48,738 nucleotides of DNA from Desulfobulbaceae bacterium. Lineage in GTDB: Bacteria > Desulfobacterota > Desulfobulbia > Desulfobulbales > Desulfocapsaceae. The notes beneath the pieces are model-generated. The model was given only the letters and a program-made list of their open reading frames with translations. It ran no database searches and had not been told where the DNA came from. Positions 20,302-24,054 of the stretch are shown here, one piece after another; the stretch's first letter is position 1; each line of letters starts with the position of its first letter. A program made the translations under genes and the position numbers. Where the stretch lies: the NCBI GenBank assembly GCA_011391225.1, contig JAABQY010000002.1:1-48738 (forward strand). Direction: 5' to 3'.

Positions 20302-22827
20302 TTATTGATGCTCGGAAAAGAACTCCCATCGGTTGTTTGCCTTTTCATACGAGTAAAACATGATCAGGGTCTGGGGTCTGCCTCGACCGCTTTCGGTACA
20401 TTGCATTTTAAAAATCATTTTGCCACCCATTTCTTTTATGTAGCTGATGGCAGGGCTATTGAGGTTCTCTGGAATGGCCGATGGGTAATTTGCTATAAAA
20501 ATAGTGCGAAAATTGTCTTTCAGGTACTGCTCTTTATCGACCTGATAAATTTTTTCATCGAGGGCTTGGATTGTAGCAATGCTGGTTTTTTTGGTTTCAA
20601 GGAATTCATCTTCAGCGGCAAAGCCACTGTTATTGATAGTGGCCACGATCTGCCGGAAAGCGTTTCTTGCCGCTGTCAGATCTTTCTTGTCATCTTTTAG
20701 GATATTTGCTGCTTGGCGGTCTCGAATTATTGTTGTTTGCAGGATAATTCTGCCGATTTTTTTTCGGGTTGCTTGTGAGTCGGATATCTTGATAGTTCCT
20801 TCTTTAGCGGTGAGAATTGCACCCGCCTTGTTGTACTCTTGTATTGCCTCATCCCAGGCCCCGGAGATGAAGGCCTTGTTTCCCCTATCAATGGTCGCAT
20901 AGAGTTCGGCGCGGCTGATGTTTTCACGGAGTGCATCAATGGTTTCCTGGGGTGCTACGTTCCCCTCTGCAACAGTTGGCAGAACAGACTTATATGAAGA
21001 AATAGCGTTCAGCCAATCGGCTTTGGAGAAAAATTCATCACCCTGTTTTCGGAAATCTTCAAAGTTGCATTTTGCCAATGCTGAGCTCAATTCGACGGCA
21101 TATCGTTGCCGATCCTTTTCAGGCAGAGCGTCAAGGAGGGTTTTGGCTTTTTTGATTTCCGAGGCAGCTTCCTGCCATTTCTTGTTCGCAAGTAAAGTGT
21201 TGGCGGCGCTAAACACCATGCTGAATCGAGTGAAATTCAGTTTGCTCTTCATCTCTTCGATGGCAGCTGGAGAAACGAGGGTGCTTATGTTGGTAATGGC
21301 CAAGATCTTGGTGAAACGCTCTTCTGCTTGTGTCCAGTTTTCCTGGTCGAAAAAATCTGCACCCTCTTTCAATAACTGTTTGTAAGTAAAGACGACGGCG
21401 GCATCTTTTTTGGGTAAATATTTGCCATCGACAAGAACCTTCCCTTCTAAGCCTTGGGCGAGTGTTTCCGACGTAAGGATTGCATTGATGCTGTTTTGTA
21501 GCTCTTTTACCCGATTTTGCTGGAAAAGCCTAACTCCAGACACGCTCTCAAGGGCATTTTCACAGGCTAGTTTGGCACCATCGAACTGTCCGTTATCCAT
21601 CAAGGCTGTGCAATGTTTCTGAGCAGTGCTTGACGCTTCGAGTTGCCGGGTGGCATTGAAATAGAAAAATCCACCGGCTGCAAGGATCATAAAAAAGATT
21701 CCGGCAAAAAGAGAGAAAACAAATATGCCGCCGACGCGTTTTTTATCAAGAAAGGACTCGTGATGTTTTAAGGGGCTAACTGGCAGTTTACGAACCTTGG
21801 ATGCCTTGACAGACATGTCGTGAACTGGCAAATCGTTTTCTGTTTGATCTGAATAATTAAAATTGGTGACGTCCGAGGTAGCGTCTTCTTTGCCTATGTC
21901 CAGGAGGCTTAGAGATTGCATAACCCTGTTTTTGTTAGCCTCAATGTTTGGAAAATCTGTTGCTATTGTAAAAACTTGTTCGTAGAGGCGGGAAGCATTT
22001 TTTAAGTTTCCGTCATTTTCAGCCTTACGGGCTGACCGATAAATATCTTCCGCTTTCTTGATCTCTTCTTCGGTATGAATGGAAATCTTTTCCATTTGAT
22101 CTGAAAAAGTGGGGCTCTTTGCAAGAGTTTGGCGAAGTGCGAAAAACCTTTTTTTGTTTTCTAAATGCTGTAATAAACCGAGGTCAGTGCCCGACGGTGT
22201 GTCAAGCGCCGGAAAAGAAGTATTTAAAATCAGTTCTTCGTCTGGGGAGGAACCCTCGGTTGAGAGAAACTCGAAATCAGGGGAAAGATCTGAGTCGTCA
22301 ATGGTATCAATCTGTGGTTTTGAATCCTTAGCATATCCGGATGATTTGTTCGTGTTGTCAATCCATTGAATATCGGCGATGGGCAAGGCATGGCTGTGAC
22401 TTTGGTACCAGATTGCCGCATCTTCATTAAAAGCGTTGCTTCTCGAGTAACTCTCGCCGTTAATGAGTTTTCCTATAAAAATTATGAGGTCAGGGATCTG
22501 ACTATCCTGCTGCCAGAAGTCTCCAAGGCAGATGGCCGCTGGGTCGAAATCAGGGTGGTAAATGTCACTTTTAGGCTTGCAACTCGGTGGAAAATGTGGA
22601 AAACCGAAGGGGATGGTCAGTTCGACCTTCAGGTTTTGGATAAGACTAGGTTCACCTTTACCAAGCTTACAGAAACCGGCAATATTGTATGTGATTTCGT
22701 ATTGTTCAGGAGGGTCGCCCTTGATTGGTTTGATGGAAATAGCTGGTTGAGAAAGAAAACCTTCTCTCAACTGACGATGGATTTCGCGTAGTTGGTCTTG
22801 GGAAACTGACATAAATTGTGTTTGCAA
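20302..22827 (-). CDS. E2/UBC-fold-like N-terminal domain fused through a linker and one TM helix to a long repeat-like C-terminal region
   Basis: Residues ~8-143 (22399..22806) contain PFGFPHFPPSCKPKSDIYHPDFDPAAICLGDFWQ...LINGESYSRSNAFNEDAAIWY, an E2-like order of motifs with Cys100 (22528-22530). TM GGIFVFSLFAGIFFMILAAGGFFYF (21658..21732). The C-terminal half is rich in helical Lys/Glu/Ala segments resembling TPR or coiled-coil repeats. Confidence 0.8.
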   Translation of the reverse strand: MQTQFMSVSQDQLREIHRQLREGFLSQPAISIKPIKGDPPEQYEITYNIAGFCKLGKGEPSLIQNLKVELTIPFGFPHFPPSCKPKSDIYHPDFDPAAICLGDFWQQDSQIPDLIIFIGKLINGESYSRSNAFNEDAAIWYQSHSHALPIADIQWIDNTNKSSGYAKDSKPQIDTIDDSDLSPDFEFLSTEGSSPDEELILNTSFPALDTPSGTDLGLLQHLENKKRFFALRQTLAKSPTFSDQMEKISIHTEEEIKKAEDIYRSARKAENDGNLKNASRLYEQVFTIATDFPNIEANKNRVMQSLSLLDIGKEDATSDVTNFNYSDQTENDLPVHDMSVKASKVRKLPVSPLKHHESFLDKKRVGGIFVFSLFAGIFFMILAAGGFFYFNATRQLEASSTAQKHCTALMDNGQFDGAKLACENALESVSGVRLFQQNRVKELQNSINAILTSETLAQGLEGKVLVDGKYLPKKDAAVVFTYKQLLKEGADFFDQENWTQAEERFTKILAITNISTLVSPAAIEEMKSKLNFTRFSMVFSAANTLLANKKWQEAASEIKKAKTLLDALPEKDRQRYAVELSSALAKCNFEDFRKQGDEFFSKADWLNAISSYKSVLPTVAEGNVAPQETIDALRENISRAELYATIDRGNKAFISGAWDEAIQEYNKAGAILTAKEGTIKISDSQATRKKIGRIILQTTIIRDRQAANILKDDKKDLTAARNAFRQIVATINNSGFAAEDEFLETKKTSIATIQALDEKIYQVDKEQYLKDNFRTIFIANYPSAIPENLNSPAISYIKEMGGKMIFKMQCTESGRGRPQTLIMFYSYEKANNRWEFFSEHQ

Positions 22828-22899
22828 GAGTTGTTAAATAGCGTACCATTTTTGTAAGTATATCAACTTATTTGAGTAACACAAAAAGAATTTTCAAAA

Positions 22900-24054
22900 G
22901 TGGGGCCGATTTGCGTTGAGAATGATGTGAAAAGCGCTTGTGCTGGGCAAACTCCGGACCTTTCCGGAAGGCAGTTTTTTGTGGTGGAGATGAAATTATT
23001 TAGCGCTATTTTTTTAATTGGAGCAGAGAAGAATTGCCCCCTCTATAAAGCTGGCGAGCGGTTGCTGCTATCGGAAAAAACGCTAGTCTGTCCTCAGAGG
23101 AAGGAAGTGTGTCTCATTCTTGTGCGTGACATGACTGAGCTGCTCTTCAAATTCCTTCAAAAACAGCCGATAAACCTCAAGGAATACGCCGGGACTGTTT
23201 TCAACTGCAGTGGATGCAAAGGCTTGATTAAATTTTCTCTGGTCGAGCCGGAATCCTTCCAGGGACAGGAACCAGGCCAAGGAGCAGTTGCGGCGATCGA
23301 ATCGACATCAAAGCCGGTCATTTCTCGGCTACTTGTCAGCCCTTTACTCAAAGCTATTCATCCCGATGAACTTGAAAGTGTATATAAATATCTTCGGGAG
23401 ATATTTTTCGAGAAAGGTTCGGTACTCATCAGAAAGGGTGAGCAGAACCTGAATCTCTATATTGTGGTTGAAGGGGAGCTTCGTGTTGAGGATGGAGGTG
23501 TTTGCTTAGCTACTCTTGCCGAAGGGGAACTCTGTGGGGAAATGAGTTATCTTGGCGCCGACGAGGCAGTCTCTACAGTTTTGGCAACAAAAAGGACGAA
23601 GGTACTGGCAGTGGCAGGGGATGTATTTGGTCGATTGCTTGGCAATAACCCGGCAGTGCAATCATACATGGCCCAATTACTTGCTTCTCGGCTCCGTCAG
23701 ACCAATGCCGCACGAGCACGAGACTTTGAATCCTGCATGAGTGGTCGCATTGATGAGATTGTTCCGGCCGAGCTGTTTCAAATCTTTCACATGCACCAAA
23801 AGACTGGGGTTTTGACCTTGCATTTTTCTGCAGGACAGGGAAAGGTGGCTTTTCGTGAAGGTTGCATTATAAATGCCGAATATCAAGAGCTGAGGAACGA
23901 GGAAGCAATTTTCAGAATTCTTGGTGAAAAAAAAGGACTCTATCGGTTTACCACCGGCCTCTCCCCAAAGGATATGCGGGCTGCCGAAATAGGCGATTTT
24001 ATGATGTTGTTGATGGAAGGGGTGAAACGAGTTGACGAAGAGCACGAACGGTAG
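22900..24054 (+). CDS. Cys-rich N-terminal domain + cyclic-nucleotide-binding-like domain + DUF4388 (PATAN-like) domain
   Basis: CPLYKAGERLLLSEKTLVCPQRKEVCLILVRDMTELL...FNCSGCKGLIKF; IFFEKGSVLIRKGEQNLNLYIVVEGELRV...LAEGELCGEMSYLG; GRIDEIVPAELFQIFHMHQKTGVLTLHFSAGQGKVAFREGCIINAEYQELRNEEAIFRIL. The start could be ATG 22990. Confidence 0.75.
   Translation: MGPICVENDVKSACAGQTPDLSGRQFFVVEMKLFSAIFLIGAEKNCPLYKAGERLLLSEKTLVCPQRKEVCLILVRDMTELLFKFLQKQPINLKEYAGTVFNCSGCKGLIKFSLVEPESFQGQEPGQGAVAAIESTSKPVISRLLVSPLLKAIHPDELESVYKYLREIFFEKGSVLIRKGEQNLNLYIVVEGELRVEDGGVCLATLAEGELCGEMSYLGADEAVSTVLATKRTKVLAVAGDVFGRLLGNNPAVQSYMAQLLASRLRQTNAARARDFESCMSGRIDEIVPAELFQIFHMHQKTGVLTLHFSAGQGKVAFREGCIINAEYQELRNEEAIFRILGEKKGLYRFTTGLSPKDMRAAEIGDFMMLLMEGVKRVDEEHER

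Follow-up and report, generated by a model that had tools for sequence, protein, structure and literature searches.

Most sampled bacteria of the order Desulfobulbales encode a membrane-anchored protein whose N-terminal domain has the fold of ubiquitin-conjugating (E2) enzymes, and we consider it probable (roughly 0.6) that this domain is a former E2 of a ubiquitin-like operon now used as a mostly or wholly non-catalytic docking module. The repeated loss of its Cys, with no partner enzymes found, makes it probable that an old conjugating enzyme has been re-used for docking. The protein is an order-wide, usually single-copy bacterial E2-fold protein without a detected conjugation system. An E2 domain that repeatedly loses its catalytic Cys yet retains its binding face would mirror, in bacteria, the way UEV and RWD domains arose, and the Cys, Arg, Ser, His and Tyr orthologs provide a natural mutant series for E2-fold function without catalysis. 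A search of a collection of open-access papers returned no description of this protein.

Gene structure and protein architecture

The gene resides in a 48,738-nucleotide stretch of a Desulfobulbaceae genome (hereafter the window), which also carries dsrAB; the host is a sulfite-reducing bacterium. We assigned the start to ATG 22812 because nearly all orthologs begin at that Met in the ortholog alignment. An earlier interpretation made without database searches (the sequence-only reading) had begun at TTG 22827, which is five residues early. From the true start the HPD motif therefore occupies residues 86-88 and the transmembrane helix approximately residues 360-382, and the residue formerly numbered Cys100 becomes Cys95, although its codon (22528-22530) had been identified correctly. 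Translation and AlphaFold prediction likewise agree with the positions given earlier for the motifs, the transmembrane segment and the helical C-terminal part.

Table 1. Features of the E2-TPR-TM-TPR gene and its divergent neighbour; coordinates refer to the window.
Feature	Residues	Coordinates	Strand	Basis
E2-TPR-TM-TPR protein, CDS		20302..22812	-	Translation; 836 aa plus stop; ATG 22812
UBC/E2-fold domain	1-150	22363..22812	-	AlphaFold, Foldseek, PDB profile match, Pfam UQ_con
Cys78, in PPSCKP strand	78	22579..22581	-	78/78 in f1, also where Cys95 is lost
HPD motif, counterpart of HPN	86-88	22549..22557	-	78/78 in f1
Cys95, at E2 catalytic Cys position	95	22528..22530	-	73/78 in f1
Helical bundle, TPR/MIT-like, predicted cytosolic, between two disordered stretches	211-305	21898..22182	-	AlphaFold
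Single transmembrane helix	360-382	21667..21735	-	Hydropathy peak 2.47; KKR precedes
TPR-like helical array, predicted periplasmic	383-766	20515..21666	-	Pfam TPR models, AlphaFold
C-terminal beta domain, CTE.GRGRPL motif	767-836	20305..20514	-	AlphaFold, alignment
Intergenic region shared with divergent partner (177 bp)		22813..22989	.	Sequence
Divergent partner: four-Cys N-domain, cNMP-binding domain, DUF4388 (PATAN)		22990..24054	+	Pfam, alignment

The E2 domain is followed by a disordered linker (residues 154-207 and 307-363 in the AlphaFold model) that encloses a TPR-like bundle, then by one transmembrane helix, a TPR array and, at the C-terminus, a beta domain of small size. The bundle gives weak NCBIfam TPR-type matches; those to the family Amuc_1098 fall inside it and were taken as TPR similarity, and a type IV pilus link by this route was rejected. 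The transmembrane helix is equally placed in full-length homologs, which upholds the proposed membrane anchor, and paralogs of 540 residues retain both this helix and the C-terminus. The KKR sequence ahead of the helix suggests that the E2 domain is cytosolic, in keeping with the topology of cytosolic E2 domain and extracytoplasmic scaffold inferred previously.

Pfam TPR models match 32 of the 37 members, whereas the single matches of the window protein lie below the cut-off; the helical hairpins in its AlphaFold model place it among TPR proteins. The helical repeats that had been described for the entire C-terminal part hold for residues 383-766, but the remainder is the beta domain, for which no convincing relative was found in the PDB. 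Kelch-like PDB matches of this domain were rejected as short motif matches to designed proteins. Two homologs from genus g5 (L025 and L026) carry the beta domain twice. One ortholog (genome G004) is interrupted by an in-frame TGA codon (L003:3214-3216, also in L031), which could reflect a pseudogene, an error or recoding.

The N-terminal domain has a UBC fold

Assignment of residues 1-150 to the E2 fold is secure, as the sequence-only reading had proposed. A profile built from 39 N-terminal domains of the family retrieved 215 sequences from the PDB at E<=0.01, among them UBE2C at E=9e-9; the best 60 of the 215 are E2s or UBC-domain proteins. The AlphaFold model (39-sequence input; pLDDT 88.5, pTM 0.85) displays the helix, beta meander and C-terminal helices of a UBC fold. 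When this model was used for a Foldseek search, 375 PDB chains were returned at E<=0.001; the best 50 of these are all E2s (probability 1.00, TM 0.58-0.64). Pfam UQ_con (PF00179) matches 34 of 37 orthologs, with a best E value of 3.8e-8, and is the sole E2-fold family found in Pfam scans of the window protein and 37 members, which gave no UEV or RWD match.

The likeness could be superficial and the domain another alpha/beta fold, given that the window protein alone scores below the curated UQ_con cut-off (E=8e-4; 19.4 versus 27 bits) and that the Foldseek TM values are moderate. However, the strength of the family profile match to UBE2C, the UQ_con scores of other members and the presence of E2s exclusively among the best 50 Foldseek matches make this hardly credible. 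That three routes (profile, Pfam and AlphaFold/Foldseek) arrive at the same fold supports the docking interpretation.

With the UQ_con E2s UBE2C and UBE2N the family shares the fold, the PxxPP motif, the HP triad, the position of the Cys, the Trp and the N-x-x-A segment ahead of the last helix. It differs from them in having HPD rather than HPN, a Cys that is not conserved, no adjacent E1, Ubl or E3 gene, and a fusion to a transmembrane helix and TPRs. The inactive UEV and RWD binding domains resemble it in combining an E2 fold without a required Cys with an inferred role in protein binding, but Pfam assigns the family to UQ_con, and many of its members keep the Cys.

Distribution

The protein was found in 163 of 248 sampled genomes of the order, mostly in a single copy, as it is in the host genome, and most occurrences fall in families f1, f12 and f3. 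In a phylum-wide sample of 398 genomes only two matches lie beyond the order (genomes G279 and G584). A homolog with 71% identity is present in a record of an uncultured delta proteobacterium. A search of phages and plasmids found no relatives of the E2 domain, and the E2 protein has no PADLOC match; a role in anti-phage defence was rejected on these grounds.

Turnover of the catalytic Cys

Our active-site census covers 135 sequences, one of them partial. HPD is combined with Cys in 80, with Arg in 41 and with Lys in three, and less frequently with Ser (two), His (one) or Tyr (one) at the Cys position. The others are HPE-Pro (two), HPA-Ala (two), HPN-Cys (one, G584) and HPN-Asp (one, G279). 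Within f1, Ser, His, Arg or Tyr replaces Cys95 in 5 of 78 orthologs, and the position ranks 43 among 152 alignment columns for conservation. Sister family f12 has Arg at this site in 37 of 39 sequences, and f3 has Lys, Arg or Cys. HPD, in contrast, is near-invariant across the order, so that one of the two motifs singled out by the sequence-only reading is retained almost everywhere and the other is not.

The tree implies seven or more switches in Cys state, against a surface formed by HPD and PxxPP that stays almost fixed. This turnover, together with the conserved Arg of f12 and the conversion of HPN to HPD within the order, favours a docking function. The tree was rooted by an outgroup, and the root is tentative because of long branches; subject to that root, Cys is probably the ancestral state, as suggested by the HPN and Cys of outside relatives and the Cys of basal f3 sequences. 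Since Cys95 is also still 94% conserved in f1, thiol chemistry may persist in that family, which weighs against a purely non-catalytic role.

In classical E2s the Asn of HPN is catalytic and is needed for isopeptide formation. Across the order the family lacks a conserved Cys, and nearly all members lack this Asn; its interpretation as a conserved catalytic module is not supported. Compared with UBE2N, the spacing between HPD and Cys is reduced by one residue, which had already been noticed from the letters; the E2 encoded in an operon of G584 has the same short spacing, which is therefore a normal bacterial variant.

No dedicated conjugation partners were detected

The conserved neighbourhood of the gene contains no E1, JAB or Ubl gene, and neither JAB nor Prok-RING was found in the host genome, in accord with the orphan status proposed earlier. 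Among f1 genomes, JAB exceeds the cut-off in 3 of 16 (G022, G253 and G009) and Prok-RING_1 is present in none of the 10 searched, whereas the same Prok-RING_1 search does match in G584. ThiF proteins occur in 31 of 31 genomes tested, whether the E2 protein carries Cys or Arg. The ThiF genes viewed in context comprise a member of a thi operon (assigned with NCBIfam) and, by our reading of their sequences, TcdA-like and MoeB/HesA-like genes; those examined look biosynthetic. Although these observations favour docking, they come mostly from metagenome-assembled genomes (the host genome is 85% complete), and the ubiquitin-family search did not match its own positive control, small Ubls being outside its searchable range.

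The same genes bear on whether the protein is an active orphan E2 in the Cys lineages, with the Arg and Lys lineages representing pseudoenzymes. A housekeeping ThiF/MoeB-type E1 would then load a ThiS/MoaD-like or other Ubl onto Cys95, for transfer to a substrate located at the membrane. The Cys occupies the E2 catalytic position in nearly all f1 orthologs, E2s of E1-JAB operons have Cys at the equivalent position, and ThiF-type enzymes are universally available in the genomes tested. However, ThiF presence does not follow the Cys, HPD stands where classical E2s require Asn, most f1 genomes tested lack JAB and those searched lack Prok-RING_1, and some f1 members have lost the Cys yet kept the remainder of the domain. 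We therefore regard an active enzyme as unlikely.

In G160, a locus (L131:5088-14394) encodes a 767-residue protein that contains ThiF, and after it come several genes that match JAB weakly; this gene set is unrelated to the Arg-type E2 protein of the same genome.

Relationship to ubiquitin-like operons

Bacterial ubiquitin-like operons that encode E1, E2 and JAB proteins, sometimes with a RING protein, have been described (Iyer et al. 2006, PMC1779556). In G584, a member of the same phylum, an E2 is encoded together with ThiF-E1, JAB, FHA, Prok-RING_1 and DnaJ genes (L130:7451-14217), which constitutes a near-complete bacterial ubiquitin-like system. This E2 is the nearest Cys-bearing relative found outside the order and has identical spacing between HP(N/D) and Cys. 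A comparable arrangement on the Crinalium plasmid NC_019754.1 comprises ThiF, a pair of small putative beta-grasp Ubls (by our reading of their sequences), an E2 with HPN and Cys, and a Mov34/JAB gene. Operonic E2s of both kinds have HPN and Cys, lie next to E1 and JAB genes and lack the TM-TPR part, whereas the window protein is an orphan membrane protein. The family of the order thus looks like an E2 of the ubiquitin-like operon type that has left its operon, and the retention of HPN and Cys by a same-lineage outside E2 within an E1-JAB-RING operon supports the docking interpretation.

The other match beyond the order, a 1054-residue protein of G279 (L129), shares the order E2, TPR, TM and helical domain and has an E2 domain without Cys, but it keeps HPN, has a different helical C-terminus, and no PATAN neighbour was found.

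A divergent PATAN/cNMP gene is the common neighbour

Sufficient flanking sequence was available for 97 loci, and in about 80 of them the divergently transcribed partner adjoins the E2 gene. It is the sole neighbour common to f1, f3, f6 and f12, in most loci of which the adjacency holds despite differing other neighbours, and this exclusivity again favours docking. We infer that the E2-fold domain would bind a protein or peptide in the cytosol, in the manner of UEV and RWD domains, through its front surface, which has been retained and consists of the IPFGFPHFPP loop, HPD and the next Trp. The single transmembrane helix would join this domain to the periplasmic TPR array and beta domain, which may hold an envelope client. 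The PATAN/cNMP protein is the best candidate for a cytosolic ligand or regulator, a proposal that draws on gene adjacency and is tempered by the 6 of 53 Cys-bearing f1 genomes in which the partner is not adjacent. In other bacteria, PATAN-domain proteins have been connected with the control of type IV pili and polarity, which by analogy gives a possible direction for function.

Alternatively, Cys95, perhaps with Cys78, may sense redox state or a ligand and in this way adjust binding to the cNMP/PATAN partner, such that the Cys becomes free to change once the partner is lost or lacks its cNMP domain. Partners with a cNMP domain accompany 53 Cys and 3 non-Cys E2s, and partners that are absent or lack the domain accompany 35 non-Cys and 9 Cys E2s. 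For example, the cNMP domain is missing from 21 of 21 partners found in f12, where the E2 is of the Arg type. Among f1 genomes, 47 of 53 with Cys have the partner next to the E2 gene, versus 1 of 5 without Cys (Fisher p=0.002, uncorrected for phylogeny), and C18, C43, C75 and C78 of the partner are invariant in the five aligned sequences. When phylogeny is considered, however, five supported independent pairs remain, of which 3-4 agree and on average none opposes (sign test, median p 0.25), and there are exceptions in f3 (Arg with cNMP) and f6 (Cys without cNMP). The association is a lead because it was noticed in the same data before being tested on them, and we judge a sensor role improbable. 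Remoter still is a hybrid in which, in Cys lineages, a housekeeping ThiF/MoeB enzyme charges a sulfur-carrier-type Ubl onto the membrane-tethered E2 under control of the cyclic-nucleotide-binding PATAN partner.

The N-terminal domain of the partner (window 22990-23245, and paralogs) carries the pattern CPLY..CLILVRELT..CxGCxGLIKF and has no PDB match. Most of the tested genomes of the order carry 1-4 copies of it; it would be an undescribed sensor domain that possibly binds metal.

A probably inactive paralog in genus g2

Genus g2 encodes a 532-residue paralog (L041:5325-6920 and L039:4824-6422) with HPE, Pro at the Cys position, a transmembrane helix and a short TPR region. Its gene lies directly downstream of a ClpA-like gene, and L041 also includes a ClpS-like gene. 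This paralog would thus be an inactive E2-fold protein encoded next to a putative protein-degradation adaptor pair.
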